Positions 7,486-38,517 of a stretch of 64,000 bases of DNA are shown here, piece after piece (positions within the stretch are counted from its first letter, which is position 1; every line of letters begins with the position of its first letter). This DNA comes from Pseudomonadota bacterium (GTDB lineage: Bacteria; Pseudomonadota; Alphaproteobacteria; Rhodospirillales; Casp-alpha2): contig JAQBYB010000007.1 of NCBI GenBank assembly GCA_027624235.1, forward strand, positions 1 to 64,000, in the 5' to 3' direction. A program made the position numbers and the translations under genes. The notes under the pieces are model-generated. The model saw only the letters and a list, made by a program, of their open reading frames with translations. It did not search any database and was not told where the DNA came from.

Positions 7486-7789
7486 AATACGTATCCTCGC
7501 GTTTCAGGAAAATCCCAAGGCCTTTTGCGCCGACGACCATCGCCACACAAACAATGAACCCGTACCAGGCATTGAAGGCGAAGGTGCCATCGAGGCCGAA
7601 ATAGCCTTGCGGCTGAACCCACAGCTCGATGGCAACCAAAAATGCCAGCAGAACACCGCCCCCGATCCAGAGCTTGCGAATTGTCTCAGGCCGGATGAGC
7701 CAGTGCACAGGCGCCTCCTTATTTTTGGCGGTCCGGGACGGTTTGGTGTTTTTTCGGACCTTATCCGTTTTTTCCGGTTTTTTAGTCAA
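7472..7789 (-). CDS. Small two-helix membrane protein in the Mrp operon, unknown function
   Basis: A 105-residue protein I do not recognise as any standard Mrp subunit. The first 25 residues are strongly basic (repeated Lys/Arg), followed by two hydrophobic segments at about 38-56 and 73-92 joined by a loop with WVQPQGYFGLDGTFAFNAWYG. It starts with TTG at 7789; GGAGG lies 7 bases upstream, which makes the start convincing. Its position between two MrpD-like genes, overlapping the downstream one, suggests an accessory subunit of the antiporter complex. Its topology and size resemble the small helper subunits seen in complex-I-related assemblies, but that is inference. Confidence 0.65.
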   Translation of the reverse strand: MTKKPEKTDKVRKNTKPSRTAKNKEAPVHWLIRPETIRKLWIGGGVLLAFLVAIELWVQPQGYFGLDGTFAFNAWYGFIVCVAMVVGAKGLGIFLKREDTYYDRD

Positions 7790-7806
7790 CCCTCGTCCTC
7801 CAATCC

Positions 7807-9327
7807 CTATGGTCCCATAACCAGACGCATCAGGTCGAAAACCGGACCCGGGTAGAAAAACAGCACCAGACAGCCGGTTGAGGAAATGGCAATGGCAATC
7901 AGGCAGGGCACGGGCGCCTCCCTGATGCCCTGGCTTTGTTCGCGGTCATGACTATGGTCGTGATCCGCATCGTGGTTATGTTTTGCGGCTGGTTCGGGGT
8001 TGTTCAAGGAGGTTGAGAAAAAACCATTAAACGGTATCTGCAACAGGTAGACAACGTTCAGCAGCGAACTGACCACCAAAACCGCGACAATGACTATTTG
8101 CCCGGCCTCCAATGCGCCCAGCATTAAGTACCATTTGCTCCATAATCCGCCCATCGGCGGCAGGCCGATGATCGAAAGGCTGCCGATCAAAAAGGCCAGT
8201 GTGGTGAACGGCATGGTTTGGCCAATACCCCGCATGTGGCTGATTTCGGTCTTGTGGGCGGTGACGATGTAGGCGCCGGCGCAGAAAAACAGCGTGATCT
8301 TGCCGAACGCATGCATGACGATATGCATGCCGCCGCCGATGACGCCGAGGTCGCTGGCCAGCATCGCGCCGATGACGATGTAGGAAAGCTGGCTGATGGT
8401 CGAATAGGCCAGCCGGGCCTTGAGGTTGTCCTGTTTCATGGCGACCAGGGATGCAATCAACACCGTCGCCGCCGCCAGGTATAGAAGCCACTGGCTGGCC
8501 TCGATGGAAGACAGGAAATCGACGCCGAAGATATAGACCGCCACCTTGAGCACCGTGAACACCCCGGCCTTGACCACCGCCACCGCGTGAAGAAGCGCCG
8601 ATACCGGCGTCGGCGCCACCATTGCGGCGGGTAGCCAGCGGTGGAACGGCATCAACGCCGCTTTGCCGATCCCAAACACATACAGCCCGAGAAGAACCGC
8701 CGCCGTCAGGCCGCCGACCTTGCCGTCGAGGATTCCGCCCTGAGTGAAATCAAGCGTCCCGACCAGGGACCAGGTCCAGATAATGGCGGTTAACTGAAAA
8801 GCGATGGAGGTGCCGAGCAGGGTTCCCAAATAAACCCGCCCGGCGCGTTTGGCCTCGGGCGTGCCGTGGTGGGTGACCAGGGGGAAAGTGGAAATTGTCA
8901 GCACTTCATAGAAGATAAACAACGTCAGCATATTTCCGGCAAAGGCAATGCCGACGGCGGCGCCGATGGCGACGGCGAAAAGCGCATAAAAACGGGTCTG
9001 GTTCCGCTCATCGTGGCCGCGCATATAGCCGATGGAATAGATCGAGGTGACGATCCACAGGAAACTGGCGATCCCGGCGAAAATCATCCCCAACGGCTCG
9101 ACCGTGAAAACGATGGCAAGGCCGGGCAGCATCTCGAACAAGGTGACCGAAGGCGTCGACCCACCGGCAACGGCGGGATAGATGCTTGCCACCAGGTAAA
9201 ACAGAACCGCACCGGTGATCAGCGCCACCGTCTCGCGGAGGTTCGGGTTGGATCCTGTCAACACGATCAGAACCGATCCCACGAAAGGGGTCAAAATGGA
9301 AAAAAAGATCGCCTGCTCAACGCTCAT
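7807..9327 (-). CDS. Second MrpD-like antiporter subunit
   Basis: A 506-residue member of the NuoL/M/N-MrpA/D family. The key membrane charges are all visible: glutamate in LFIFYEVLTIS, lysine in GIGKAALMPFHRWLPAA, and lysine in AVVKAGVF. About 14 membrane segments are predicted by eye. A cytoplasmic or periplasmic loop near the C-terminus is rich in His and Asp (HNHDADHDHSHD), which could bind metal ions. The start overlaps the end of the upstream MrpD gene by 4 bases. Confidence 0.85.
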   Translation of the reverse strand: MSVEQAIFFSILTPFVGSVLIVLTGSNPNLRETVALITGAVLFYLVASIYPAVAGGSTPSVTLFEMLPGLAIVFTVEPLGMIFAGIASFLWIVTSIYSIGYMRGHDERNQTRFYALFAVAIGAAVGIAFAGNMLTLFIFYEVLTISTFPLVTHHGTPEAKRAGRVYLGTLLGTSIAFQLTAIIWTWSLVGTLDFTQGGILDGKVGGLTAAVLLGLYVFGIGKAALMPFHRWLPAAMVAPTPVSALLHAVAVVKAGVFTVLKVAVYIFGVDFLSSIEASQWLLYLAAATVLIASLVAMKQDNLKARLAYSTISQLSYIVIGAMLASDLGVIGGGMHIVMHAFGKITLFFCAGAYIVTAHKTEISHMRGIGQTMPFTTLAFLIGSLSIIGLPPMGGLWSKWYLMLGALEAGQIVIVAVLVVSSLLNVVYLLQIPFNGFFSTSLNNPEPAAKHNHDADHDHSHDREQSQGIREAPVPCLIAIAISSTGCLVLFFYPGPVFDLMRLVMGP

Positions 9328-10814
9328 TGAACGCCACCAAGCAAGGTTTCAGCCGCCCCGGTGGCGATGTCCAATGGCAAGGTCGCATTGATGCCGAAAT
9401 AATAAGACAACCCGATCATCACCCACGTCGGCACCAGCATCGAGGCCGGTGCTTCGGTAATCTCGGCGGCGCCCTTGGGCGGCGGCTTGAAGTACGCGGC
9501 TTCGACAACGCGCCACACGTAAATGACCGCCAGCAGGGAACTGACCAGGATTGCAACCACCACCGGCCACCAGCCTTTTTCCAGGGCTCCTTGAATCAAA
9601 TACCACTTGGAGATAAATCCCGCCGTCAACGGTATCCCGATCAGACCGAAGCCGCCGGCGACGAACGCCGCCATGGTCAACGGCATGCGCTTGGCCAAGC
9701 CTTCCATGCTTTCGATCTGGACCGAGCCGAGGCGGAGAAAGACACAGCCCATGACCATAAACAGCCCGCCCTTCATCAGGGCGTGATTGAACAAATGCAC
9801 AAGGCCCGCGGTCATGCCGATGACCGAAGCCATGGAAAGGCCGAGGATCATGTAGCCGATCTGGGCAATCGACGAATACGCCAACAGCCGTTTGACGTTG
9901 CTTTGGTAGAGGGCGACCGCAGACCCCCCGATCATCGCGGCGATGGCAAGGGAGACGAGTATTTCCTGAAGCCCGAAATCGTCGAAAATTCCGCTGCCGC
10001 CAAAGATCGTGAAAAGAATGCGGGCGAAGGCATAAACCGCGACCTTAGTGCCCGTCGATGCCAGGAACGCCGACACCGCCGACGGCGCATGGGTATAAGC
10101 GTCGGGCAGCCACAGGTGCAACGGGACCAAGGCCAACTTCAAGCTCAGACCGACCAACAGGAACGCCAGCGCCACCATGATGGTCCGGTTGCCGTAAAGG
10201 TCCGGCACCAGGGTCGCCAGGTCGGCCATGTTCAGCGTTCCCGTCACCTGATACATCATGCCGACGCCGATGATGTAAAAGGTGGCGCCGATGGTGCCCA
10301 TGATTAAATAACGATAGGCGGCGATCAGCGCCTTGCGGTCGCGGCCGAGGCTGATCATCACGTAAGACGACAGCGACGAAATCTCCAGAAACACGAACAG
10401 GTTGAAAACGTCGCCGGTGATGGCGATGCCCAACAGCCCGGCAAGGTTCAATAAATACATGCAATAGAACAGGTAGATCCGGGGTTCTTCGATTTCCGCT
10501 TTGATGCTGGCCCGCGCGTACGGCATCACCACCGACCCGATCAGGGTAACGATGACCAGCATGAAGGCGTTGGCGAGGTCGATGCGGTATTCAATGCCCC
10601 AGGGCGCCGGCCAACCGCCGAGCGAATAGATGATGGTTCCGGTTTCCAGAACGCGGCCCAGCAGGGTCAGGGCAATTGCCAGCAACACCCAGGTCATCCC
10701 TGTCGCAATCAACCAGGCGGCGCCATGCCGGCGCAGAACCAGGCAAACCGGAGCCGCCAAAAGCGCCAGCACCACCTGTAACGCCGGAAGATGGCTGAAG
10801 AGGGAGGCGGTCAT
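9324..10814 (-). CDS. mrpD: MrpD/MnhD-type Na+/H+ antiporter subunit D
   Basis: A 496-residue antiporter-like channel subunit and the best candidate for the canonical MrpD. Signature residues are present: TM5 glutamate (LFVFLEISSLSSY), TM7 lysine (LKLALVPLHLWLPDAYTHAPSAV, lysine at its second position) and a TM8 lysine (GTKVAVY). The start is the ATG at 10814, overlapping the MrpC stop as TGATG. A TTG one codon earlier also exists but is less likely. It sits in the classical C-D order. Confidence 0.9.
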   Translation of the reverse strand: MTASLFSHLPALQVVLALLAAPVCLVLRRHGAAWLIATGMTWVLLAIALTLLGRVLETGTIIYSLGGWPAPWGIEYRIDLANAFMLVIVTLIGSVVMPYARASIKAEIEEPRIYLFYCMYLLNLAGLLGIAITGDVFNLFVFLEISSLSSYVMISLGRDRKALIAAYRYLIMGTIGATFYIIGVGMMYQVTGTLNMADLATLVPDLYGNRTIMVALAFLLVGLSLKLALVPLHLWLPDAYTHAPSAVSAFLASTGTKVAVYAFARILFTIFGGSGIFDDFGLQEILVSLAIAAMIGGSAVALYQSNVKRLLAYSSIAQIGYMILGLSMASVIGMTAGLVHLFNHALMKGGLFMVMGCVFLRLGSVQIESMEGLAKRMPLTMAAFVAGGFGLIGIPLTAGFISKWYLIQGALEKGWWPVVVAILVSSLLAVIYVWRVVEAAYFKPPPKGAAEITEAPASMLVPTWVMIGLSYYFGINATLPLDIATGAAETLLGGVQ

Positions 10815-11167
10815 CAAGACTCACCCTCCTGTTTCTCAATCTCGTCATCTTCGATGGTGCCGTAGGCATCGCGGATGCGAACCACCAACGCCAACCCCAA
10901 TGCCGTGGTCGCCACGCCGACGACGATGGCGGTCAGAATCAGGACGTGGGGCAGGGGGTTGGAATAGGTGGTGATGCCATCGGCTAAAATCGGCGCCGTG
11001 CCGCCCTTGACCTTGGCCATGGTGATGTAAAATACGAACACCGAAACCTGAAAGATGTTCAAGCCGACAATTTTTTTAATCAGGTTGTCATGGGAGATGA
11101 CGATATAAAACCCGGTCATCATCAACACGATGACGATCCAATAATTGATCAGGCCAATAAATTCCAT
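10814..11167 (-). CDS. mrpC: MrpC/MnhC-type antiporter subunit C (NuoK homologue)
   Basis: A 117-residue protein with three membrane helices, homologous to NuoK of complex I. The family motif is seen in KKIVGLNIFQVSVFVFYI, followed by a helix containing PHVLILTAIVVGVATTALGLAL. It ends with a short acidic tail (DDEIEKQEGES). It lies between the fused A/B subunit gene and mrpD, separated or overlapped by only a few bases, so it is co-translated with both. Confidence 0.9.
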   Translation of the reverse strand: MEFIGLINYWIVIVLMMTGFYIVISHDNLIKKIVGLNIFQVSVFVFYITMAKVKGGTAPILADGITTYSNPLPHVLILTAIVVGVATTALGLALVVRIRDAYGTIEDDEIEKQEGES

Positions 11168-11170
11168 GGC

Positions 11171-12133
11171 TCAGTGTTCCTGGCGGGCGAAGGTAAAGAA
11201 GATGGCAATCATCGCCGCCGCCACGGTTAAACCAACGCCGAATTCGACCAACAGGATGCCCACGTGCTGACCACCGACCGGATCGGCGGCCAACACCGAA
11301 TAATCAAGGAAGTTGCCCCCTAAGACCATACTGGCGACGCCGACGCCCGCGTACAAAAGAACGCCAAGGGCCAGAAACAGGCGCGTCACCCGTGCCGGGA
11401 TCAGGGAGCGGGCGGTGTCGATATCGAAAATCAGCGCGTACAGGATAAATCCCGACGCGAAGATTACCCCGGCCTGAAAGCCGCCGCCGGGACCGAAATC
11501 GCCGTGCCATTGAACATAGAGCGCAAACAATAAAATAAACGGGATCAGAAGCTTGGAGACGACGCGCAGGATGACGTTGGTTCTCATGCTGTCGCGCAGT
11601 TCCCCGACCGCCATGCGATGGGATCTCCGCCTCCCAAACTGGGGCCGCCCGATGATCAGCAGCACGCCGATGGCGGCGGTAAAGATCACGAAAACCTCAC
11701 CCAGGGTGTCATAGCCGCGATAGCTTGCCAGCACCGACGTCACCACGTTGGCCACGCCGATTTCCTGGCCCGATTTTTCCAAGTAATACGGCGCGACATG
11801 CTGATGGATGGCCGCCGTGGGATCGCCAAAGGGCGGCATGTCCAGGGTCCCGTAAATAAGGACGCAGCCTGTCACCACCACCAACACCAGTGCCCATGGC
11901 GAGCCGCCCGTCGTTTCGGTTTTTTCCTCGCTGGTCGTCAGCGCCAGGGTGCCCAGCATCAACACCGTTGAGATGCCGGCGCCGACGGCGGCTTCGGTAA
12001 AGGCAACATCAACGGCATCCAGAATGACGTACAGGACGGCCGCCGTCAGGCTGAAAATTCCGGTCAGCATGACCACGGCAAATAGATTCCGAAGTCGCGC
12101 CACGGCAAATCCGATCACCGCCATAAAACCCAT
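11171..12133 (-). CDS. Fused MrpA C-terminal (MbhD/MbhE-like) and MrpB subunit
   Basis: A 320-residue membrane protein joining three modules: an MbhD/DUF4040-like part with the motif DVAFTEAAVGAGISTVLMLGTLAL, an MbhE-like part (about 80-170, with YRGYDTLGEVFVIFTAAIGVL), and a MnhB/MrpB domain (about 185-320, with HGDFGPGGGFQAGVIFASGF). In classical Mrp operons the first two modules form the end of MrpA. The annotated ATG at 12133 cuts into the first helix and has no ribosome site. GGGAGG at 12067-12072 offset by 100 (plus-strand 12167-12172) is 6 bases before an in-frame ATC at 12160, which would add nine residues. The true start is thus uncertain. Confidence 0.82.
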   Translation of the reverse strand: MGFMAVIGFAVARLRNLFAVVMLTGIFSLTAAVLYVILDAVDVAFTEAAVGAGISTVLMLGTLALTTSEEKTETTGGSPWALVLVVVTGCVLIYGTLDMPPFGDPTAAIHQHVAPYYLEKSGQEIGVANVVTSVLASYRGYDTLGEVFVIFTAAIGVLLIIGRPQFGRRRSHRMAVGELRDSMRTNVILRVVSKLLIPFILLFALYVQWHGDFGPGGGFQAGVIFASGFILYALIFDIDTARSLIPARVTRLFLALGVLLYAGVGVASMVLGGNFLDYSVLAADPVGGQHVGILLVEFGVGLTVAAAMIAIFFTFARQEH

Positions 12134-12147
12134 CAGCGAAAAGATAA

Positions 12148-12501
12148 TCAGGTTTTCGATGACTCGCCTCCCTTGGTGGGGGCTTTGCCTTTGGGGGTTA
12201 CAGTCTGTCGGGGACGGACACCGCCATGCAACGCCGCCCGCGCCAGGGCATGGGTCGCCGTCGGGCTGGTAAACAGGATGAAAATAACGATCAGGACCAG
12301 CTTAATGGTAACGATGCTCAAGCCCCCCTGGATCATCAAGCCGGACAACACCGCGCCGGCGCCCATGGTCTCGATGATGCCGGCCCCGTGCATACGCGCG
12401 AACACATCCGGAAGCCGGATCAAACCAATGCCGCCGATAATCAGAAACACCGAACCGACGGCCAGCAGCCCCCAACTGAGGATTTCCAGAACAATATCCA
12501 T
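12148..12501 (-). CDS. mrpG: MrpG/MnhG-type antiporter subunit G
   Basis: A 117-residue protein with three membrane helices. The family motif IGLIRLPDVFARMHGAGIIETMGAG lies in the first third. The C-terminal tail is basic and proline/lysine-rich. The gene start shares its last base with the end of mrpF, and its end lies within the probable start region of the A/B fusion gene, so the operon is tightly packed. Confidence 0.9.
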   Translation of the reverse strand: MDIVLEILSWGLLAVGSVFLIIGGIGLIRLPDVFARMHGAGIIETMGAGAVLSGLMIQGGLSIVTIKLVLIVIFILFTSPTATHALARAALHGGVRPRQTVTPKGKAPTKGGESSKT

Positions 12502-29118: not shown

Positions 29119-31848
29119 TTAGGGTGCGTCCTGGACCGTGCGTTCCTTCGGAAACAGGACCGATACCGTGGTGCCGATACCGGGCTCGCTTTCCATAAAC
29201 AATTCGGCGCCGTGGGCCTCGGCCAGCTTCTTGCTTAACGGCAGGCCCAGGCCTGTGCCTTCGTACTTGCGGCTTAATGTCCCATCGACCTGGCCGAAAT
29301 CGGAAAGCGCCGTTTTAATATTTTTGGCTTCGATCCCGATCCCTGTGTCGGTGACGGACAATTCAAAACGCCCTTCGGCGTCGATTTTCGCCCGCAGGGT
29401 CACCGAGCCGCCTTTGTGGGTAAATTTGATGGCGTTGGACAACAGGTTAAGTAAAATTTGCTTGATCCTCAGTTCATCGGCAAAAAGCGCCGGAAGGGTC
29501 TTGGCGACGTCAATCTTAAATTCCACCCCGGCTTCATAGGCACGATCCGTGATCAGGCGCTGGCACGAGCCCACCAGCAAGGGCACATCCAAGTCTTTCT
29601 CCTCCAGCTCCAGGGCGCCGCGTTCGATGCGAGAGATGTCGAGGATATCGTTGATCAAATTCAATAAGTGTTTTCCCGAGTCATTGATGTCGGTCAGGTA
29701 TTCCAAGAGTTTCGGTGGCGGGGCGGTGTCCGTGGCTTGATCCATCAAAAGGCTGGAAAACCCGATCACCGAATTCAACGGGGTTCTGAGTTCATGACTC
29801 ATGTTGGCCAGAAATTCGCTCTTGGCGCGGTTGGCGTATTCGGCCTCTTCCTTGGCCGCCCTGAGTGCCGCTTCGGCTTGCTTGATTTCGGTAATATCAA
29901 TGAACGACAAGGCGATGCCGCCTTCGGGCGTGCGGACCTCGCTAAGCATAAACCAATTGCCATCCGTGAATTGGCGGAGGAACGGACCACTGGGGTTTTG
30001 GTGCTGTTGAAGTCGCTCTTGGATGAATTCTTCCTCCCGGCCAATCGCCTCAACCATCACACCGCGTTCCACATTGGCGCGGAAAATATCCTCGAAGGTG
30101 CCGCCCGATTCGAAGAATTTTTGGGCGGCGGGATTGTTTCTGCGGTATTCGTCGTTAAGCGCCACCAGGCGGTCCTCGGCATCGAAAAGGGCGAAGCCTT
30201 CCTGCAGGCTTTCGATGGCGCCACGCAGCCGTTCTTCGCTTCGGCGCAAGGCCACTTCGTCGCGCTTGCGTTCGGTAATATCGGTCGAAATGGTTGCCGT
30301 TGAGCCGTCTGGAAACCGTTGCTCGTTGACCAGAAGGCAGCGACCGTTACGGTTTATTTCAAAAAGCCCACGCGGGTTTTTGTGTCGCTCGATACGCTCT
30401 TTGAGCCACTCCTCTTCCCGGCCTTCGATATTTTCATACACTCCATGTTCAATGAGGGCACGTTGGCGCTCGTTAAAATGCACGCCTGGGGCGATGGATT
30501 CAGGAACGTCCTTGTTTAGGTCTCGATATCTTTCGTTGGCGATGACCAGTCTGTCGTCGGGGTCATAAAGCACGAACAATTCCGACATCGCCTCGATGGC
30601 CCCGGCCAGGCGTTGGGTGCCTTCCTCTGCCCGTTGGCGCTCGGCGATTTCCTGGGTCAGCTCTTGGGTGCGCTCCTCGACCCGGCGTTCCAACTCATCA
30701 TGAGCATGGCGAAGCTCACCCTCGACCCGTTCACGTTGAACCATGACGGTGGCGATATCGCGGGCCATGGCGTTAAACGCGGCCCCCAATTCGTGAAATT
30801 CCCGAGGTACCAGGCCCTGCAGTTTGGGAACCCGGGATTCAAGGTTGCCATCCTCGATTCGTTTCGCCGTAAGGACCACGGCTTCGACCGGCCTGACCAA
30901 CATCCCCGACAGCAGCCAACTGAGCACCGCGGCGATGATGAAGCCCAAAATGATGAGCCCCATGGCGACACGGGTTACCTCGCTGGCGTGTTTTTCCAGT
31001 TCATTCAATGGCTGCGGGACCATCACCCCCCAGCCGGTCCGGGGTACCGTCGAGAACCCCGATATCATGTCGCTTTTAATCGCCGGGGAATAAAAAGTAG
31101 CGACCCCGGTTTCACCGGCCATCATTTTTGCGACCGGCGCCAGGTTGGCGATATTCTTCAACTGCTCCTGCCATTCAGGCTTTGGGTGGGCGATGATATT
31201 CCCGGCGTGATCAACAATCGCGGAATGGCCCCTTTCACCGAAAGCAACGGACTTTTGAAGCCTTCGGATATATTGGAGTTCCAAGGCCCCGATGGCGATC
31301 TGGTTAGCGCCGAGGCGCTGGATTAAAAAAATGGTCGGCCGTCCTTTGGCGTCTTTCATGACTGGGCTGAATGCCGGCGCGGCGGCGGTCATGATGGGGC
31401 GTAGTTTAGCCAGTAATTTTTCCGGAATTCGGGCGGGCGCTGCATCGGTAACATTTAGAAATGAGGTTATCCGGCCCTCATTATCAGAAATACAGACATG
31501 CCGGAAACCGGTGCTTTTGGCCAAAATAATGGCGGCATTTGTAGGCTTTCCGGCGAGAAGGGATTCGGAAAAAAAAGAAAACGACGCCTCTACTTCAAGG
31601 GCATAGCGGTCCAAGGCCGCCGTAATATTTTCAGCCAACAGCAAATGCTTTTCCGAAACGATGCCCAATTCCCTCTTCATCGCCGTATCCTCGACCCAAA
31701 CCCCGAGGATCACCAAGGGCACGGTGGCGACCGCAATAAAGGCAATGGCCAAAAGGTGGCGAAGGCGTGGTTTCAAGCCGGGAACTCTCAAAAAAAGGTA
31801 ATTTACAGCGCCGCAAACATACCATTTAGTATTAGAGCGCGACAACAA
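29119..31848 (-). CDS. Membrane-bound PAS sensor histidine kinase (orphan)
   Basis: A 909-residue sensor kinase. Order: a first membrane helix (about 32-50), a Cache-like periplasmic sensor domain (about 55-285), a second helix (about 290-315), HAMP (LVRPVEAVVLTAKRI onward), coiled coil, two PAS domains (about 415-530 and 545-660), HisKA with the phosphorylated His685 in ANMSHELRTPLN, and a HATPase domain with N box NLLSNAIKF and DTGIGI. No receiver domain and no response regulator gene are adjacent. The first in-frame codon is TTG at 31848; no ATG precedes the first helix, so the exact start is uncertain. Confidence 0.85.
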   Translation of the reverse strand: MLSRSNTKWYVCGAVNYLFLRVPGLKPRLRHLLAIAFIAVATVPLVILGVWVEDTAMKRELGIVSEKHLLLAENITAALDRYALEVEASFSFFSESLLAGKPTNAAIILAKSTGFRHVCISDNEGRITSFLNVTDAAPARIPEKLLAKLRPIMTAAAPAFSPVMKDAKGRPTIFLIQRLGANQIAIGALELQYIRRLQKSVAFGERGHSAIVDHAGNIIAHPKPEWQEQLKNIANLAPVAKMMAGETGVATFYSPAIKSDMISGFSTVPRTGWGVMVPQPLNELEKHASEVTRVAMGLIILGFIIAAVLSWLLSGMLVRPVEAVVLTAKRIEDGNLESRVPKLQGLVPREFHELGAAFNAMARDIATVMVQRERVEGELRHAHDELERRVEERTQELTQEIAERQRAEEGTQRLAGAIEAMSELFVLYDPDDRLVIANERYRDLNKDVPESIAPGVHFNERQRALIEHGVYENIEGREEEWLKERIERHKNPRGLFEINRNGRCLLVNEQRFPDGSTATISTDITERKRDEVALRRSEERLRGAIESLQEGFALFDAEDRLVALNDEYRRNNPAAQKFFESGGTFEDIFRANVERGVMVEAIGREEEFIQERLQQHQNPSGPFLRQFTDGNWFMLSEVRTPEGGIALSFIDITEIKQAEAALRAAKEEAEYANRAKSEFLANMSHELRTPLNSVIGFSSLLMDQATDTAPPPKLLEYLTDINDSGKHLLNLINDILDISRIERGALELEEKDLDVPLLVGSCQRLITDRAYEAGVEFKIDVAKTLPALFADELRIKQILLNLLSNAIKFTHKGGSVTLRAKIDAEGRFELSVTDTGIGIEAKNIKTALSDFGQVDGTLSRKYEGTGLGLPLSKKLAEAHGAELFMESEPGIGTTVSVLFPKERTVQDAP

Positions 31849-32021: not shown

Positions 32022-32041
32022 CTCATATGAGGAGAAGGAAG

Positions 32042-32785
32042 ATGCTATTTCGAGCCTTGAAGACATCTCTCACACTTTTGGCCGCCGCCGCCGTAATGAC
32101 AGGTGGTATCATGACAGCATCGCCGCCGGTAGCCGCCGACGAAACCGCGTCAAGTATTGTTAGGGGCGCCAAGCTCTATGATAAGTGGTACAAGGTCGTC
32201 GGCCAAAAAAAGCCGACGAAGTCCCATGCGGCCTATCCAACCGATAAGAAGTACGCCAAGGACCCCGGCTCCAACTGGCGCTGTAAGGAATGCCATGGTT
32301 GGGATTACAAGGGTACGGACGGTGCCTATAAAACCGGCAGCCACAGCACCGGAATCAAAGGCATCAACGGCATGGCCGGCGCCGACACGGCCAAGATTGT
32401 TGCCGTCCTTAAGGACAAAACCCACGACTTAAATGGAAAATTGGGAGAAGACGACTTCCAGGACTTGGCCATGTTCGTCAGTAAGGGGCAAGTCGATTCG
32501 AGCAAATACATCGACGCCAAGAAAAATATCATTGGCGGCAACGCGGAAAAGGGCGCTGCCTATTACAACACCGTTTGCTCCAACTGCCACGAAAAAGACG
32601 GCGCCAAGCCGAAGGAAATGGGTAAATCGCTCGGCTCGCAGATGGGTAATCCGTGGGAGGTCATGCATAAGATCGTCAACGGCCAACCCGACGAAAAGAT
32701 GCCGGCCCTTCGTGAATTCGGCATGCAGCCGGTTCTCGATATCATGGCGCACATCGCCACCCTTCCAAAGAAAAAGCTGAAGTAG
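32042..32785 (+). CDS. Periplasmic diheme cytochrome c, first gene of the electron-transfer cluster
   Basis: A 247-residue secreted protein with two c-type heme sites, CKECH at residues 81-85 and CSNCH at 179-183. A signal peptide ends near VAADE (residue 33). The first site sits in a block WRCKECHGWDYKGTDGAY shared with the fifth gene of the cluster, while the second half looks like a class I cytochrome c. The start at 32042 follows GGAGAAGGA; an ATG at 32027 is also in frame. The family is not one I can name. Its likely role is soluble electron carrier. Confidence 0.82.
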   Translation: MLFRALKTSLTLLAAAAVMTGGIMTASPPVAADETASSIVRGAKLYDKWYKVVGQKKPTKSHAAYPTDKKYAKDPGSNWRCKECHGWDYKGTDGAYKTGSHSTGIKGINGMAGADTAKIVAVLKDKTHDLNGKLGEDDFQDLAMFVSKGQVDSSKYIDAKKNIIGGNAEKGAAYYNTVCSNCHEKDGAKPKEMGKSLGSQMGNPWEVMHKIVNGQPDEKMPALREFGMQPVLDIMAHIATLPKKKLK

Positions 32786-32804
32786 AGGAGGATTAGGTAG
32801 ATTT

Positions 32805-32835
32805 GGCTCCCGCCCCAACCCCTGGGACGGGAGCC
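32805..32835 (+). terminator. Hairpin between the first cytochrome gene and the rest of the cluster
   Basis: An 8-bp stem GGCTCCCG/CGGGAGCC extended by CCC/GGG past one mismatch, loop of about 7 bases. It is 20 bases after the first cytochrome stop and has no T-run. As with the liv and aap hairpins, it may favour expression of the first, soluble protein. Confidence 0.65.
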
Positions 32836-32880
32836 TGTTCTGCCGACTGACCGGTGACCCTCATCTGAAAGGAAGCTGCC

Positions 32881-33378
32881 ATGTCCGGGCCATCTTCAAC
32901 TTCACATCTTTATCGATTAGGGATCGTTCTTGTTGCTTTTTTCGTCGCCGCCGTATTGGTCGGATGGTGGGCGGTGCCGTCGAGCTGGAACTTTGACGTT
33001 GACCACTGGTACCGCAAGGACGCACTGATCGATAATGCCCAAAAGCCGATGGTGTATGGCGGCAATGAATCCTGCAAGGACTGCCACGAGCCGGCGATGA
33101 AGAAGCTGGCCAAATTCAAACACCGGGCGCTGTCCTGCGAATCCTGCCATGGCCCGGTTGCCGATCACGTCCGCGGGAACAAAAAGTTCGCCGCCGCCAA
33201 GGTCGATAAGTCACGCTGGCAGTGTGAGAACTGTCACCAGGAACAAATCAACAGGCCGAAAGATTTCCCGCAATTTTCAAAGACCGGAGATATCGGAAAG
33301 TTCGTCAAGAAGCACAATCTTCTCGAAAAGAAGACTCTGTGTTTGGAATGCCACAACGCTCACGACCCGACTAACTGA
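32881..33378 (+). CDS. Membrane-anchored tetraheme cytochrome c
   Basis: A 165-residue protein with one N-terminal membrane helix (about 12-30) and four CxxCH heme sites: CKDCH 65-69, CESCH 86-90, CENCH 115-119 and CLECH 154-158. It is smaller than NapC/NrfH-type cytochromes and has the look of a small multiheme electron carrier on the periplasmic side. The gene is followed 17 bases later by the ferredoxin-type gene. A family name is not assigned. Confidence 0.85.
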   Translation: MSGPSSTSHLYRLGIVLVAFFVAAVLVGWWAVPSSWNFDVDHWYRKDALIDNAQKPMVYGGNESCKDCHEPAMKKLAKFKHRALSCESCHGPVADHVRGNKKFAAAKVDKSRWQCENCHQEQINRPKDFPQFSKTGDIGKFVKKHNLLEKKTLCLECHNAHDPTN

Positions 33379-33395
33379 ACGACGGAGCGACTGAT

Positions 33396-34181
33396 ATGAT
33401 GCCGATACCATCTCCAATAGAAGCAGACACTGATTCCCGGCGTGAATTCTTGAGAAATATTCTTGCCGGCACCGCGACGGCCACGGTCCTGATGGTGTTC
33501 GGCCCCGGTGCGATGGCGCTGAGCGATCCCACCCGGCGCACCAAAAATAAGGCCAAGCATCAGTTCGCCTATGTCATCAACATCAACAACTGTATCGGTT
33601 GCGGCAATTGCGTGCGCGCCTGCAATAAGGAAAATAATGTGCCCGCATCGGTTTTTAGGACCTGGGTCGAACGCTACGTCGTCACCGACGAAGGGGTCTA
33701 CGTCGAATCACCAAACGGCGGCCTCAAAGGTTTTGAGGCCGTCAACAAGAAGCTCCGCCAAAATTTCAAGAAATCCTTCACGGTGCCGAAGATGTGCAAC
33801 CACTGCGAAGACCCGCCCTGCGTTCAGGTTTGCCCCGTCGGCGCCACCTTCAAGACCGAGGAAGGCTTCGTTCTGGTTGACCACGCCCATTGCCTCGGCT
33901 GTGCGTATTGTGTGCAGGCCTGCCCCTATGCGGCCCGCTACATCGACCCGATCAAGCATGTGTCGGACAAGTGCGATTGGTGCTATCACCGGGTCAAGAA
34001 CGGCAAGCTGCCGGCCTGCGTCACGGTCTGCCCCAACAAGGCAAGGCTGTTCGGTGATTTGAAGGACCCGGAAAGCGAGGTCACTAAAATCTTCAAGGAG
34101 GACCAATGGATGGTTCTCAAGCCCCACATGCACACGGACCCGACGTGCTTTTATATCGGCTTGCCCAGGGAGGTGGTGTGA
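33396..34181 (+). CDS. Tat-exported ferredoxin-type electron transfer subunit (NrfC/DmsB/PsrB-like)
   Basis: A 261-residue iron-sulfur protein with four [4Fe-4S] cysteine groups. The first is C66, C69, C72 and C76 (NNCIGCGNCVRAC); others are CNHCEDPPCVQVCP, HCLGCAYCVQACP, and CDWCYHRVKNGKLPACVTVCP. An N-terminal twin-arginine signal is seen (SRREFL, residues 14-19). Such subunits carry electrons between a quinone-reactive NrfD-type membrane protein and a partner enzyme. The stop overlaps the NrfD start as TGATG. Confidence 0.88.
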   Translation: MMPIPSPIEADTDSRREFLRNILAGTATATVLMVFGPGAMALSDPTRRTKNKAKHQFAYVININNCIGCGNCVRACNKENNVPASVFRTWVERYVVTDEGVYVESPNGGLKGFEAVNKKLRQNFKKSFTVPKMCNHCEDPPCVQVCPVGATFKTEEGFVLVDHAHCLGCAYCVQACPYAARYIDPIKHVSDKCDWCYHRVKNGKLPACVTVCPNKARLFGDLKDPESEVTKIFKEDQWMVLKPHMHTDPTCFYIGLPREVV

Positions 34182-35362
34182 TGGAATTGCCCGGCGACGC
34201 CCTGGTCAACTTTATCTTTCCCAACAACGCCAAGGTGTGGTGGTCGGTCATGATCGTCCTCTACCCCTACCTGACCGGGTTGATGGCCGGTGCCTTCGTG
34301 GTTTCGGCGCTCAGCCACGTCTTCAAGATCAAGGAATTCAAGCCGATCGCCAACTTCGCCCTGATCGCCGCCTTCTGCTTCGGACTGTTCGCGGCGACAC
34401 CTTTGTTGGTGCATCTCGGCCAACCGCAGCGGGCCTATGAGATCTACGTCACCCCGCACCTGACATCGGCGATGAGCATCTTCGGGTATTTCTACAGCGG
34501 CTATCTGGTGTTGCTGATGATCGAGATTTGGTTGATCTACCGGCCCTATTTCACCCGCATGGCCAACCAAACGAAAGGGTTCATGGGCTTCATCTGGTAC
34601 CTGCTGACGCTCGGCCAGTTGGAATACAACCCCGCCTCCGCCAAGGTCGACCAAAAGATCATCGCCGTTCTCGCCGGGATCGGCATCCCCTGGGCCAGTG
34701 TTCTGCACGGGTACGTCGGTTTCGTGTTCGGATCGGTGAAGGCCGTGGCCTGGTGGGCGACGGCGCTGCAACCCTTCATCTTCCTGTCATCGGCCATCGT
34801 CAGCGGCATGGCGGTTCTGTTCCTGATGTACACCTTTATCCGTTGGCGTCAGCGCCAGGCATACGACTTTGCCATGGTCCGCAAATACATGGCCTTCCTG
34901 TGGGGCATCTTCATCCTCGATTACGCGCTGGAGGTGATCGAACTGGCTTTCGTCGTTTACGAACGAGGCTATCACTGGTCGCTCATCGAGCCGTTGTTAA
35001 AGGGACCGCTGTTCGATTCCTACGCCATCATGCAGATGGGCATCCTTTCCGTGACACCGCTCCTGATTCTCGGCTATGTCGTGTTGTCCAACATTTCGGG
35101 GCGGATGATGATCCACATGGCCAACTTCGGCAGCCTGATATTGCTTTTGCAGGTGTTATTCATGCGCTTCAACGTCGTCGTCGGCGGCCAGCTGATTTCA
35201 AAATCCGAACGCGGTTTCGTCGACTTCGAATGGGAAATCCTCGCCAAGGAAGGGATTTTAACCGCCATCGTTCTGTTCGTGGCGCCATTCGTCACCTACT
35301 ACATCATCAGCCGCTTCATCCCGATTTTCGATGACCCGGCTGCGGGGAAAGAGGGAAGCTAA
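34181..35362 (+). CDS. NrfD/PsrC-type membrane quinol-reactive subunit
   Basis: A 393-residue integral membrane protein with about eight to nine hydrophobic helices, resembling NrfD, PsrC and the ActC/ActF subunits of alternative complex III. Early motifs include YPYLTGLMAGAFVVSALSHVF and the ATPLLVHLGQPQRAYEIY segment. It would exchange electrons between the quinone pool and the ferredoxin-type subunit. The ATG at 34181 overlaps the upstream stop; an in-frame ATG at 34106 lies inside the previous gene and is not used. Confidence 0.88.
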   Translation: MELPGDALVNFIFPNNAKVWWSVMIVLYPYLTGLMAGAFVVSALSHVFKIKEFKPIANFALIAAFCFGLFAATPLLVHLGQPQRAYEIYVTPHLTSAMSIFGYFYSGYLVLLMIEIWLIYRPYFTRMANQTKGFMGFIWYLLTLGQLEYNPASAKVDQKIIAVLAGIGIPWASVLHGYVGFVFGSVKAVAWWATALQPFIFLSSAIVSGMAVLFLMYTFIRWRQRQAYDFAMVRKYMAFLWGIFILDYALEVIELAFVVYERGYHWSLIEPLLKGPLFDSYAIMQMGILSVTPLLILGYVVLSNISGRMMIHMANFGSLILLLQVLFMRFNVVVGGQLISKSERGFVDFEWEILAKEGILTAIVLFVAPFVTYYIISRFIPIFDDPAAGKEGS

Positions 35363-35433
35363 ACATTTAAAACAATCGTCTGGGGGTCGTTTTGACAGAA
35401 TTACATCACAGATAAACCTTCGGGAGGTGCGGC

Positions 35434-36270
35434 ATGAGACCCATACATCAACTACCAAGTGCCTTTCGCCTGGCCGCCAAATTGATTGTTGCCGTCTCCG
35501 TCCTTGTCGCGGCGGCTGTTGTCGTTCCGCGACTGGTGGCGGCAGGGCCAAGCAATACGACGGAAGTGGCCCAGTCGACGGCAAAATACGACAAAGACCT
35601 CTGGGATATCGCCCGGGGCGGCCAACTGTATGATAACTGGGCCGTTGCCCTGGACAAGGAACTGCCAAAGAAAAACCATCCCTCCTATCCCACCATCGGC
35701 AAGAAAAAAGGCGGCATCACCTGGCGCTGCAAGGAATGTCATGGCTGGGACTACATGGGCGAGGACGGCAGCTACGGCCGGGGCGGACACTATACCGGCG
35801 TCAAGGGATTGCGCCGCATGACCGGGGCGCGCATTGAGGATATCATCGGGATCATCACCGACAAAACCCATCAATACACCGAAGACATGATCCCGCCGTT
35901 GGCAATGAAAAAAATTGCGTTGTTCATCAGCAAGGGCCAGATCGGTATGGACCAGTACATTGATCGTTCGACCAAACGGGCACGCGGCGACGTTAAACGC
36001 GGCGCCTCGTTCTTCCAAACCGTATGCGCCATTTGTCACGGTTTTGACGGCGCCGAAATGGTTTCCAAAAGCCAGACTGAAATGGCGGCTTTCGGTGACC
36101 GTGGCCTGCTTGGAACCATGGCCATCGAAGACCCTTGGGAAAGCCTGCATAAGATTCGCAATGGCCAACCGGGTGTCGGCATGGTGGCGTTGCGGGTGTT
36201 GAGTGTCCGCGATCAGGTCGATGTGCTTAGCTATATTCAGACCCTGACTAAACGCCGCTTGGAAGATTAA
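35434..36270 (+). CDS. Second periplasmic diheme cytochrome c, paralogue of the first
   Basis: A 278-residue protein with an N-terminal hydrophobic signal or anchor (about 18-36) and two heme sites, CKECH 99-103 and CAICH 198-202. The segments GGQLYDNW, HPSYPT, WRCKECHGWDYMGEDGSYG and HYTGVKGLRRM match the first gene of the cluster, so the two arose by duplication. The region after 200 also matches its class I-like half. It may serve as the soluble partner of the complex, or as one of its subunits. Confidence 0.82.
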   Translation: MRPIHQLPSAFRLAAKLIVAVSVLVAAAVVVPRLVAAGPSNTTEVAQSTAKYDKDLWDIARGGQLYDNWAVALDKELPKKNHPSYPTIGKKKGGITWRCKECHGWDYMGEDGSYGRGGHYTGVKGLRRMTGARIEDIIGIITDKTHQYTEDMIPPLAMKKIALFISKGQIGMDQYIDRSTKRARGDVKRGASFFQTVCAICHGFDGAEMVSKSQTEMAAFGDRGLLGTMAIEDPWESLHKIRNGQPGVGMVALRVLSVRDQVDVLSYIQTLTKRRLED

Positions 36271-36345
36271 ACCTCGGTGGAGAGCGACGCCTTCCGCGCC
36301 GGGAATAACCGGACGGATAAAACGGCTTTTTCGCGTTTCAAAACC

Positions 36346-36400
36346 CGCCATACTGCCACCGCTTGCCGATTAATCCCGTTTCCGGGAAGGCAGCATGGCG
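36346..36400 (+). promoter_or_regulatory. Structured leader upstream of the NapC-like gene
   Basis: A 12-base arm CGCCATACTGCC at 36346-36357 pairs with GGCAGCATGGCG at 36389-36400 with one mismatch, enclosing an inner stem-loop TCCCG-TTTC-CGGGA. A ribosome site (AAGGAGAAAA) follows at about 36411-36420. The fold could act as an mRNA processing or translation control element. Confidence 0.4.
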
Positions 36401-36425
36401 TTGACTTCTCAAGGAGAAAAGAAAA

Positions 36426-36995
36426 GTGATTAAACGTCTGTGGAAATGGTTCTGGCGTCCGAACTCGAAATTCGGCTTGGGGGTCATCCTGATCGTCGGC
36501 GGTATCGGCGGCGTTATTTTATGGGGCGGGTTCAATACCTATATGGAACACACCAACAGTCTGGAATTTTGCATCTCCTGCCACGAGATGGAGGATTACG
36601 TCTATCAGGAATATAAAAAAACCGTCCACTATAAAAATGCTTCCGGTGTCAGGGTCATTTGTTCGGACTGCCACGTGCCGAAGGAATGGACGGCGAAGCT
36701 GGTTCGTAAAATCCAGGCTTCAAACGAACTGCTCCACAAGGTTTTGGGGACCATCAACACACGCGAGAAATTTGAGTCCAAGCGCCTGGAATTGGCGCAA
36801 CATGTCTGGGCATCCATGGAAGCTACCGATTCCCGCGAATGTCGTAACTGCCACTCCTATGAGGCCATGGATTTCCACAAACAATCCCGCCGCGGTCAGG
36901 ATAAAATGGAAAAGGCCTTCAAGAAGGGCGAGACTTGTATCGAATGCCATAAGGGAATTGCCCATAAACTCCCCGATGGATTCGAAAAGGACTAA
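36426..36995 (+). CDS. NapC/NirT-family membrane tetraheme cytochrome c
   Basis: A 189-residue tetraheme quinol dehydrogenase of the NapC/NirT type. One N-terminal membrane helix (about 17-37) is followed by CISCH 49-53, CSDCH 79-83, CRNCH 139-143 and CIECH 171-175. The HEMEDYVYQEY and MDFHKQSRRGQDKM segments are typical of NapC. The gene starts with GTG at 36426. NapC normally feeds electrons from quinol to a periplasmic reductase, but no reductase gene is beside it. Six genes of this cluster share direction with gaps of 0 to 155 bases. Confidence 0.9.
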   Translation: MIKRLWKWFWRPNSKFGLGVILIVGGIGGVILWGGFNTYMEHTNSLEFCISCHEMEDYVYQEYKKTVHYKNASGVRVICSDCHVPKEWTAKLVRKIQASNELLHKVLGTINTREKFESKRLELAQHVWASMEATDSRECRNCHSYEAMDFHKQSRRGQDKMEKAFKKGETCIECHKGIAHKLPDGFEKD

Positions 36996-37023: not shown

Positions 37024-38517
37024 ATGGCCGATACCATCCTTCTCAGTGTCGAGGAAATGTACCAAGCCGACGCCCTGGCCGTCGCCGCGGGCGTGGCCTC
37101 CCTTGATCTGATGGAAGCGGCGGGGGCCGCCATCGCCGCTGAAATTCAAGACCGCTGGCAGCCGCGTCCGGTGTGCGTGCTGGCCGGGCCGGGCAATAAC
37201 GGCGGCGATGGTTTTGTCGTCGCCCGCCTTTTGACCGAGGCCGGATGGCCGGTGCGGTTGGCGTTCCTAGGCAGCCCGGACTCCTTAAAAGCCGACGCCG
37301 CCGTCAACGCCGGACGCTGGCACGGCGCAATCGAAGAGCTAACGCCTGCCATGCTGGACGGCCGACCCCTGGTCGTCGACGCCCTGTTCGGGGCCGGGTT
37401 GACCCGGCCACTGGACGGCGCCGCACTTTCTTGTGTTCACCGGATCAACCAGGACGGACTGGATTGCCTTGCCGTCGATATCCCCAGCGGCGTTGATGGC
37501 GACAGCGGCGAGATTCTGGGTGGCGACGGCGGCGCGCCTCGGGCCGCCGTGACGGTGACCTTCTTCCGGGCCAAGCCCGGCCATTACCTGATGCCTGGGC
37601 GTGCCCTTTGTGGCGATTTGATCGTTACCGATATCGGTATTCCGGCAAGCGTTCTCGACCAGATCGCCGCCGCCACGCGCCTTAACGGTCCAGGCCTTTG
37701 GTTGGATCGGTTCCCCTGGCCGGACACCGAGGATCATAAATACAGCCGGGGCCATGCCGTCGTCGCCGGCGGCGCCGAAATGACCGGCGCCGCCCGGCTG
37801 GCGGCAATGGGGGCGAGAAGGATGGGGGCCGGGCTTGTCACCATCGCAACGCCGCCCGAGGCTTTCGCCGCTTATGCCCGGGAGGAACCCGGTACCCTGG
37901 TCAAAAAGGTCGAAAACGATGACGCGTTCCGTGTGCTTTTAGGTGACCCAAAAAAGAACGCCATCCTTGTCGGGCCGGGTCTGGGCGTTTCAGAGGGTAC
38001 CCGTGCGAAGGTGCTGGCGGCGCTGGAGACAGGCAAGCCGGCGGTCATTGACGCCGACGGGCTGAGCGCCTTCGCCGAAAACCCGCAACAATTATTTAAG
38101 GCGATCACCGGGCCGTGTCTGCTGACTCCCCATGAGGGAGAGTTCAATCGGTTGTTTTCCTTGTCCGGCGGCAAGGTTCCAAGGGTGCGGGCGGCGGCGC
38201 GGCTGTCCGGCGCGGTGGTTCTGCTCAAGGGCGCCGACACGGTCATCGCCGCGCCGGGCGAACAGGAAACCGCCATTGTCGTCATCAACGCCACCGGTAC
38301 GGCCGATCTGGCCACGGCCGGCACCGGAGATGTGCTGGCGGGAATGGCTTTGGGCTTGATGACCCAGGGGCTGAACCCGTTTGATGCCGCCGCTTGCGCC
38401 GTCTGGCTGCATGGCCGCGCCGCCGAGCAAATCGGCCCCGGCCTGATTGCCGAAGATTTACCCTCTGCACTGCCCGGTGTATTGCGTACTTTGAAAGAAA
38501 ACGCTTCCAAGACTTGA
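37024..38517 (+). CDS. nnr: Bifunctional NAD(P)HX epimerase/dehydratase
   Basis: A 497-residue repair enzyme for hydrated NAD(P)H. The N-terminal half (to about 210) is the YjeF epimerase domain with VLAGPGNNGGDGFVVARLL. The C-terminal half is the ADP-dependent dehydratase with the glycine-rich motif ATAGTGDVLAGMALGL and the YSRGHAVVAGGAEMTGA block. Its upstream in-frame extension to 36637 runs antiphase through the NapC-like gene and is spurious; the ATG at 37024 is chosen. Confidence 0.93.
   Translation: MADTILLSVEEMYQADALAVAAGVASLDLMEAAGAAIAAEIQDRWQPRPVCVLAGPGNNGGDGFVVARLLTEAGWPVRLAFLGSPDSLKADAAVNAGRWHGAIEELTPAMLDGRPLVVDALFGAGLTRPLDGAALSCVHRINQDGLDCLAVDIPSGVDGDSGEILGGDGGAPRAAVTVTFFRAKPGHYLMPGRALCGDLIVTDIGIPASVLDQIAAATRLNGPGLWLDRFPWPDTEDHKYSRGHAVVAGGAEMTGAARLAAMGARRMGAGLVTIATPPEAFAAYAREEPGTLVKKVENDDAFRVLLGDPKKNAILVGPGLGVSEGTRAKVLAALETGKPAVIDADGLSAFAENPQQLFKAITGPCLLTPHEGEFNRLFSLSGGKVPRVRAAARLSGAVVLLKGADTVIAAPGEQETAIVVINATGTADLATAGTGDVLAGMALGLMTQGLNPFDAAACAVWLHGRAAEQIGPGLIAEDLPSALPGVLRTLKENASKT

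Follow-up and report, generated by a model that had tools for sequence, protein, structure and literature searches.

Multiheme cytochromes c, four-cluster ferredoxins and NrfD-type membrane proteins are known to be combined in several arrangements (Nhc, Hmc, Qrc and DsrJOP), and NirT-NirB is a known pair of a NapC-type and a diheme cytochrome (available text of PMC13086519). In the parts of the literature available, NrfCD and PsrBC modules mostly serve an enzyme (PMC6303296), Qrc is an electrogenic cytochrome c3:menaquinone oxidoreductase (PMC13059093) and Nhc is listed as a TpIc3:quinone oxidoreductase (PMC8076601). Here we analyze a six-gene cluster of such proteins in a window of 64,000 nucleotides (the whole stretch of DNA analyzed, positions 1 to 64,000 of contig JAQBYB010000007.1, assembly GCA_027624235.1) from an alphaproteobacterium of the order Rhodospirillales, whose genome comprises 3.03 Mb in 159 contigs and is 94.7% complete. 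The cluster consists of two partly known modules: a NapC/NirT-family cytochrome with a diheme cytochrome (c1), and a cassette of tetraheme cytochrome, ferredoxin (FeS) and NrfD-type protein (together the trio), accompanied here by a second diheme cytochrome (c2). It represents an undescribed variation, not a new kind of enzyme, and its most likely role is to transfer electrons between the quinone pool of the membrane and the small cytochromes of the periplasm. A literature search, limited for subscription journals, returned no description of this cluster; what is new is the tetraheme partner, the nesting within the c1-NapC pair and the swappable carriers, and the principle itself is not new.

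The six genes and their closest described relatives

The cluster comprises, in order:

32042..32785, + strand: c1, an exported diheme cytochrome c of 247 amino acids (Pfam Cytochrome_CBB3, 3.2e-10), the predicted carrier of the NapC module
32881..33378, + strand: a membrane-anchored tetraheme cytochrome c of 165 amino acids with four CxxCH (Pfam Cytochrom_c3_2, 1.2e-7)
33396..34181, + strand: FeS, a Tat-exported ferredoxin of 261 amino acids with four [4Fe-4S] cysteine groups (Pfam Fer4_11, 7.8e-26)
34181..35362, + strand: an NrfD/PsrC-family membrane protein of 393 amino acids with a predicted quinone site and 9 helices by hydropathy (Pfam NrfD, 3.5e-31, 109.4 bits)
35434..36270, + strand: c2, a second exported diheme cytochrome c of 278 amino acids (Pfam Cytochrom_C, 6e-8)
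36426..36995, + strand: a NapC/NirT-family membrane-anchored tetraheme quinol dehydrogenase of 189 amino acids with a GTG start (Pfam Cytochrom_NNT, 1.8e-75)

An earlier description of this DNA, made from the letters and translations (the sequence-only reading), had given these six genes in this order and place with 12 CxxCH sites and four cysteine groups, all of which we confirm on the + strand. The CxxCH counts along the cluster are 2+4+0+0+2+4 = 12 (those of c2 and NapC tallied by eye in the translations), and the 16 cluster cysteines of FeS, together with its RRxFL Tat motif, are invariant in all six aligned orthologues. The genes are separated by 95, 17, -1, 71 and 155 bases, FeS and NrfD thus overlapping by 1 base; a longer open reading frame for c1 opens at 32027, and a purine-rich, ribosome-site-like stretch (judged by eye) lies ahead of 32042. 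The Pfam matches of all six proteins are far above chance level, and the NapC protein belongs to the NapC/NirT family by its Cytochrom_NNT score (252.9 bits, cut-off 24.1), its N-terminal anchor and its four CxxCH. Among the NCBIfam matches listed (for FeS the best 25 of 77), none of the six proteins reached a model's cut-off, the NapC subfamily TIGR02161 being narrowly missed (284.2 against 310.6 bits). A promoter and terminator scan gave a signal no better than that of shuffled sequence.

The cofactor ligands were followed in alignments of the tetraheme and NrfD proteins, which cover 13 of the 14 complete loci introduced below (L042 was not aligned) plus the divergent, partial L047. In the tetraheme cytochrome all 14 rows keep the histidines of the four heme sites plus exactly four others (H81, H96, H145 and H161), the first heme site reading CxxxCH in L016. 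Because of these four extra histidines, the alignment suggests that all four hemes are bis-His ligated and none is open to substrate, which would make the protein a wire and not an enzyme. In NrfD, H78 is invariant in the 14 rows, with an Asp at that position in two DsrP-like proteins, and S96 is invariant in 16 of 16 rows (the 14 and both DsrP-like proteins). The review of Calisto and Pereira, in its available text (PMC8076601), describes a protonatable residue and a conserved serine in the quinone site of the NrfD family, the former being His in ActC, NrfD, DmsC and SoeC and Asp in QrcD, HybB and DsrP, with Asp110 and Ser128 of DsrP2 lying 18 apart; the H78-S96 spacing of 18 matches. With its NrfD domain and these aligned quinone-site residues in transmembrane helices 2 and 3, the protein falls within the NrfD/PsrC family. 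By hydropathy, 13 of the 14 rows have 9 segments, and L015 and both DsrP-like proteins have 10. Sequence searches against solved structures returned NRFC PROTEIN (2vpw_B) as the best match for FeS, only NrfH (2j7a_C) for NapC, weak or partial matches for the tetraheme and diheme cytochromes and, whether with a single sequence at E 1 or with a profile at E 10, no match for NrfD.

With QrcABCD of sulfate reducers the cluster shares an anchored multiheme cytochrome c, a four-cluster ferredoxin and an NrfD-type protein, and Qrc likewise has no active catalytic center and exchanges electrons between periplasmic cytochrome and quinone (available text of PMC6303296 and PMC13059093). It differs in having no QrcB-like subunit, in a host that possesses bc1, and in scores far under the Qrc cut-offs (FeS 102.9 against 400 bits, NrfD 21.8 against 570). 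The multiheme partner also differs, QrcA being a hexaheme protein. NhcABCD, to which the cluster is likened by description, combines a multiheme cytochrome with NhcB (four clusters) and the NrfD-like NhcC (PMC8076601, available text). The window cluster has this architecture (multiheme cytochrome c, FeS and NrfD, no separate catalytic subunit), a likeness of architecture only, with four hemes against the nine of NhcA and with no counterpart of the extra small membrane gene NhcD; the available text of the same review gives no Alphaproteobacteria for NhcC. The sequence-only reading was right that an NrfC/NrfD pair stands here without its enzyme, but not in treating this as an anomaly, such pairs being already known, as in Nhc (PMC8076601, available text).

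The gene order is identical to that of DsrJOP, which also encodes a small anchored multiheme cytochrome c, a four-cluster ferredoxin and an NrfD protein, and DsrO and DsrP rank among its best matches to curated models. FeS nevertheless reaches 185.9 bits against the DsrO cut-off of 200 and NrfD 33.7 against the DsrP cut-off of 350 (to be read with caution, since the genome's own DsrP-like protein also has no NCBIfam match at E 1e-20). No DsrM or DsrK was found among the open reading frames around the cluster, the tetraheme protein has four hemes against three in the genome's own DsrJ-like gene, and NrfD is 18% identical to two proteins read as DsrP. Contig C82 of the same genome carries its own DsrO, which passes at 324.4 bits, and a DsrM match of 163 of 300 bits. 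NrfBCD resembles the cluster in setting a bis-His multiheme shuttle on an NrfCD pair (for NrfB, available text of PMC12285233), but NrfB is a pentaheme protein, neither NrfA nor any pentaheme open reading frame lies beside the cluster, and the scores (NrfC 162.7 of 377.6, NrfD 30.9 of 347.6, NrfB 23.1 of 166.6 bits) are below the cut-offs.

NirT-NirB, encoded by nirSTB in Stutzerimonas, likewise pairs a NapC/NirT tetraheme with a diheme cytochrome (PMC13086519, available text), a likeness of gene families and not of c1-NirB homology. In the window the pair flanks an NrfD cassette, and no linked cytochrome cd1 is present (no PF02239 match at E 1e-80), whereas such a gene is linked in the relatives L107 and L108. 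The likeness to alternative complex III (ACIII) is one of proposed purpose, from quinol to cytochrome c through an NrfD-type site; the window cluster has no ActB fusion and no pentaheme ActA, but a single NrfD and a separate FeS of 261 amino acids. Membership of DsrJOP, NrfBCD, Qrc and ACIII was thus rejected, the model scores lying below the cut-offs.

The cytochrome c1 of bc1 (PF02167) is present in the window genome (on contig C67; the genome also has three COX1-family genes) and in each of the 14 same-class genomes that have the trio or a remnant of it. It was found in 19 of the 21 genomes searched, the exceptions being G006 (no trio) and G847 (divergent trio, 69% complete). We therefore conclude that the trio operates beside bc1, and replacement of bc1 was rejected. 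As the genome has bc1, oxidases and a DsrMKJOP-type cluster, the window cluster replaces neither bc1 nor DsrMKJOP. Of the ACIII-like purpose put forward in the sequence-only reading, a path between quinone and cytochrome c fits; the cluster is no stand-in for complex III, given the cytochrome c1 genes and the absence of a fused ActB and a second NrfD.

A discrete trio family and its nesting in NapC-diheme pairs

A census with an alignment of six NrfD sequences (E 1e-30 or better, own genome counted each time, all counts lower bounds) gave orthologues in at least 3 of 385 genomes of the class, at least 11 of 199 of the order and at least 3 of 398 of the phylum. The order count includes a fragment (in G454), and the two phylum matches other than the window form a divergent branch, scoring 364 and 221 bits where full orthologues reach 687-749. 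In a single-sequence search full orthologues scored 572-613 bits and other NrfD proteins of the same genomes 22-34, so that the family is discrete and well separated. Scanning a genome collection with the window NrfD gave one orthologue (63%) and two distant relatives (25% and 26%); a plasmid search gave remote haloarchaeal NrfD only.

The comparison was based on 14 complete trio loci in 13 genomes (the window, L013, L014, L015, L016, L018 and L038-L045). L018 is identical with L037 and counted once; L017 (contig end), L046 (remnant), L047 and L048 (both divergent) were left out. Flanking genes in relatives were identified by eye, with Pfam and NCBIfam scans for chosen genes, and several loci end at contig ends. 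The trio order is constant in all 14, with NrfD 61-71% identical to that of the window, and no catalytic gene stands beside the trio in any of them. The absence of a catalytic subunit next door, pointed out by the sequence-only reading for the window, is therefore a trait of the family and not a peculiarity of this genome. The exact six-gene order, which that reading suggested looking for, occurs in three of the 14 loci (the window, L039 and L045).

What varies is the company of the trio. The carrier ahead of it is a c1-type diheme cytochrome in five loci (the window, L016, L038, L039 and L045) and a mono-heme cytochrome in seven (L013, L015 and L040-L044); L018 has no carrier and L014 has concatenated diheme carriers. 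NapC and a c2-type diheme accompany 5 of the 14 (the window, L013, L039, L045 and L040, slightly upstream in the last). Beyond these, L039 is next to a COX1 operon and L038 next to the gene of a metallo-beta-lactamase/rhodanese protein. L018 has a PF02613 chaperone-like gene and a CRP-type regulator as neighbors, and L040-L042 have bc1 genes (Pfam-checked in L040). Several kb beyond the trio of L040-L042 lies an operon that we take to be ACIII-like, one NrfD Pfam match having been obtained in L040.

Some individual loci deserve separate mention. In genome G045 (L014) the c1-type unit is repeated four times upstream of the trio at 9430-12165 (911 amino acids, 8 hemes) and twice at 7931-9367 (478 amino acids, 4 hemes), and a further open reading frame of 785 amino acids with two such units lies on contig C228 (L094); these concatenated units look like a growing periplasmic heme chain. 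Genome G044 has two trio copies, on C29 (L015) and C33 (L016), with NrfD 61 and 64% identical to that of the window and with a mono-heme and a diheme carrier, respectively. The L018 chaperone gene (11669-12472, nitrate-reductase-delta/TorD type) adjoins the trio with no molybdoenzyme seen nearby, and the regulator (7386-8198) is divergent from the trio, the stretches 5' of it and of the chaperone being similar in translation. In the divergent trio of G791 (L048), one of the two phylum matches noted above, an in-frame stop interrupts NrfD and the FeS gene is apparently shortened at its start, which would mean either a broken copy or an assembly error.

Relatives of c1 and c2 were found with a diheme alignment (E 1e-25, a lower bound) in at least 66 of the 199 genomes of the order, and are thus commoner than the trio. 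From this census we chose loci outside trio clusters, leaving L093 and many short loci out of the tabulation. Among the 13 single-unit loci so obtained, NapC is next to the cytochrome in seven (L098, L101-L104, L106 and L107) and one diheme gene away in L108, giving 8 NapC-diheme pairs that exist without the trio. A cytochrome D1 nitrite reductase gene (nirS) adjoins the pair in L107 and L108, and adjoins a diheme cytochrome without NapC in L099; NapC and D1 genes are both lacking in L097, L100, L109 and L105, the last being near a contig end. Six further loci hold tandem diheme units: L090-L092 with flavocytochrome c (the flavoprotein Pfam-checked in L090 and L091) and NapC-like genes, L095 with a PhsA-like enzyme, L094 and L096 with none of these. 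Tandem copies also lie 3.2-3.6 kb from soxB, by coordinates, in G052, G443, G453, G468 and G480. These tandem and NapC-like genes near flavocytochrome c or soxB may connect the oxidation of sulfide with the quinone pool.

A tree of 23 diheme units separates the two cytochromes. The c2 proteins of the window, L039 and L045 form a clade (support 100/99), to which L013 and L040 add their cytochromes (95/91). Each of the five comes from a trio cluster, and among the units compared the c2 type is restricted to such clusters. By contrast, c1 of the window pairs with the cytochrome of L101 (93/90), and L102 supplies the partner of c1 of L045 (92/94). Neither L101 nor L102 has the trio, and both supports are just below the tool's 95/80 mark. 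In the NapC tree L039 groups with L101 (94/95) and L045 with L102 (88/80). Sister genomes of two genera carry the cassette between c1 and NapC in one genome and c1 adjacent to NapC in the other. For L045 (G587) and L102 (G544) the UbiD proteins are 89%, NapC 75% and c1 74% identical; between L045 and L101 the values are 89% and 84% for a two-component pair, 77% for NapC and 63% for c1. For G587 and G544 there is good support for a four-gene cassette (tetraheme, FeS, NrfD, c2) that lies within a c1-NapC pair or has been lost from within one. For L039 (G482) and L101 (G565), with NapC 85% and one downstream gene 60% identical, the same nesting follows mainly from gene order. The presence of two quinone entry points (NrfD and NapC), which the sequence-only reading had found unusual, holds and has an explanation, since the cassette lies within a NapC-diheme pair that exists without it.

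The site of the cluster and the rest of the genome

The following features surround or interrupt the cluster:

29119..31848, - strand: a divergent histidine kinase with Cache, HAMP and PAS regions (Pfam, dCache_1 just below the cut-off)
32805..32835, + strand: a strong hairpin after c1 with no T-run, a possible attenuator or mRNA stabilizer
37024..38517, + strand: the downstream neighbor, a putative NAD(P)H-hydrate epimerase, which marks a conserved site and lies outside the system

No catalytic gene adjoins the cluster, the kinase being upstream and the epimerase downstream (we take the latter gene to be an NAD(P)H-hydrate epimerase from its sequence). Within the window's genus, the kinase stands directly beside the epimerase, with nothing between, in G003 and G006; because it is retained where the cluster is absent, it is not evidently part of it. 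In the same genus, the kinase start lies beside the epimerase in G004, the site holds a broken diheme gene and a porin-like gene in G007, a porin-like gene in G002, and in G005 a trio cluster that includes NapC, a diheme cytochrome and the porin-like gene, while G008 reaches a contig end at the site with NapC and the end of NrfD. The contig of G009 stops at the site, and G001 has no epimerase match. In another family, G454 retains c1 and the final third of NrfD, with a c2 that is broken, ahead of the same epimerase gene. The remnants and empty sites in the genus, together with G454, indicate that the site is old and the cluster frequently lost. The porin-like protein (so read by eye; 374-383 amino acids; L013:11486-12610, L120:2194-3345 and L124:1457-2608) occurs at this one site with or without the cytochromes in three genomes of the genus. 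Its presence in the cluster of G005 and at the site in G002 and G007 had pointed to an outer-membrane conduit, but the L013 copy has no Pfam match and the gene is absent from the window cluster, and the idea was dropped.

All 13 diheme genes examined outside the c2 clade have a strong hairpin no more than 80 bases past their stop, whether or not a trio is present (z -2.4 to -6.3 against mononucleotide shuffles, the genes of L097, L099, L100, L105 and L109 being left out); at 13 other gene ends z ranged from +2.0 to -2.0. The hairpins after c2 of L045 (-26.0 kcal/mol) and after the mono-heme gene of L044 (-22.2) match or approach the weakest diheme hairpin (-23.5). The stems differ in sequence, so it is the position that is kept. 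Such a hairpin would fit an over-production of c1, as a diffusible carrier, relative to the membrane complex.

Elsewhere in the genome, Sox genes, an FCSD-type flavoprotein and the Dsr cluster stand together on contig C82 (L058 and L059), with soxB, dsrA, a weaker match read as dsrB, and DsrO above its cut-off; from these genes the organism looks like a sulfur oxidizer. Four molybdopterin genes (PF00384) are present, one in the window at 53010 (read as nuoG) and three on other contigs: a formate dehydrogenase above its model's cut-off, a formate-dehydrogenase-like gene that ends its contig next to a beta-like gene (by eye), and a PhsA-like gene (353 of 694 bits) with its own FeS- and NrfD-like genes (by eye). 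Contig C4 carries a formate-dehydrogenase-like enzyme with a Tat-like leader (by eye) and, at L056:11153-12598, a gene with five CxxCH and a cytochrome c554 domain.

Proposed electron flow and the alternatives

We regard the cluster as two quinone-linked electron outlets that would share a periplasmic pool of diheme cytochromes, a reading to which we give a probability of about 0.62. The cassette is best read as a quinone:diheme-cytochrome oxidoreductase of Qrc/Nhc-like design, with a cytochrome pool in common with NapC. In its module (A), NrfD would bind (ubi)quinone at the periplasmic face, electrons would pass through the four ferredoxin clusters to the anchored, all-bis-His tetraheme cytochrome, and this would interact and exchange electrons with c2 (and c1); the module may be electrogenic. 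In the other module (B), the NapC/NirT tetraheme would oxidize quinol and reduce c1, as is thought for NirT-NirB toward NirS. The diheme cytochromes would then carry electrons to or from enzymes encoded elsewhere, the candidate partners being the oxidases in the window genome and nitrite reductase, flavocytochrome c or Sox in relatives. The second option of the sequence-only reading, a partner encoded elsewhere, may thus also hold if it is reached through these diffusible carriers.

The cluster probably oxidizes quinol at low oxygen, and flow from quinol to cytochrome c appears somewhat likelier, at the least, than the reverse. Cytochrome D1 genes occur in 9 of 11 trio genomes (G454 included) against 66 of 188 others (Fisher p 0.003, kinship ignored, as in the comparisons below). 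Upstream of 5 of the 14 clusters there is an FNR-like box with no more than one mismatch, against a background of 0.03 per 300 bases in the same loci (binomial about 3e-5 in a post hoc test; 9 of all 29 upstream stretches scanned have a box).

Several observations weigh against this picture. The window genome (95% complete) has no PF02239 match at the threshold given above, and the 300 bases preceding c1 hold no FNR-like box even when two mismatches are allowed, so that the low-oxygen and nitrite evidence comes from relatives. The association of the trio with dsrA is weak (8 of 11 against 69 of 188, p 0.024), and one with soxB, also tried, was rejected (6 of 11 against 79 of 188, p 0.53). Because the hairpin follows c1, this gene may be a separate transcription unit, a single operon is doubtful and one system is not assured. 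In the second pair of sister genomes (G482 and G565) the c1 proteins are 59% identical and unpaired in the tree. Finally, structure models of NrfD and c2, built from two-row alignments, were unusable (mean pLDDT 46 and 37), and the quinone site is therefore predicted from the alignment.

The same proteins could work in the opposite direction, as a Qrc-like cytochrome c:quinone oxidoreductase passing electrons of periplasmic sulfur or formate oxidation from the dihemes through tetraheme, FeS and NrfD to ubiquinone, and so feeding a reversed complex I or conserving energy as in Qrc. The sulfur-oxidizer gene set of C82 (soxB, FCSD-type flavoprotein, dsrA, DsrO), the formate-dehydrogenase-like enzyme on C4, the NapC-like and tandem diheme genes beside flavocytochrome c (L090-L092), the tandem copies near soxB in five genomes and the precedent of Qrc as an electrogenic enzyme (PMC13059093, available text) all agree with it. 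The soxB gene is, on the other hand, not commoner in trio genomes, the cluster lacks a QrcB gene, its scores with the Qrc models fall far under the cut-offs, and the FNR-like boxes and cytochrome D1 co-occurrence in relatives favor quinol oxidation. Transfer from a class I-type cytochrome to ubiquinone is also uphill, unlike that from cytochrome c3 to menaquinone. On balance we hold the reverse direction to be unlikely.

Less probable still is that the cluster is the dedicated partner of one unlinked enzyme, a molybdoenzyme or the pentaheme C554-like protein on C4, as NrfBCD is for NrfA. The general habit of NrfCD/PsrBC modules of serving an enzyme (PMC6303296, available text), the PF02613 gene after the trio in L018 and a tandem diheme cytochrome beside a PhsA-like enzyme in G478 would suit such a role; yet the four molybdopterin genes are accounted for as nuoG, formate dehydrogenase, a formate-dehydrogenase-like gene with its beta-like neighbor and a PhsA-like gene with its own FeS- and NrfD-like genes, the 14 complete loci have no catalytic gene beside the trio, and the carrier next to it differs between loci. 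That the cluster is a degenerate DsrJOP or NrfBCD relic with no present function seems very improbable: its patchy presence, its decay at one site (remnants in G454 and G007, empty sites in G003 and G006) and the divergent copy with an in-frame stop in G791 could be so explained, but all six window genes are open, orthologues with 61-71% identity in NrfD retain the cofactor ligands, and the genome has a separate DsrO above its cut-off.

Returning to the two-outlet reading, we would tentatively extend it to the family: the trio may, though this broader claim is rather doubtful, stand alone in Pseudomonadota as a swappable quinone:cytochrome c oxidoreductase that differs from bc1, ACIII, Qrc, Nhc and NapC, works beside bc1 and shares the diheme and mono-heme pool of NapC. 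One quinone pool would then feed periplasmic cytochromes through three parallel outlets, whose balance could be adjusted under low oxygen. If this is true, it would constitute a third route between quinone and periplasmic cytochromes besides bc1 and NapC, and would help to explain how electrons are rerouted among Sox, nitrite reductase and oxidases in sulfur-oxidizing and denitrifying relatives. It would also provide a minimal three-protein NrfD system without a catalytic subunit, well suited to the question of whether NrfD modules are electrogenic.

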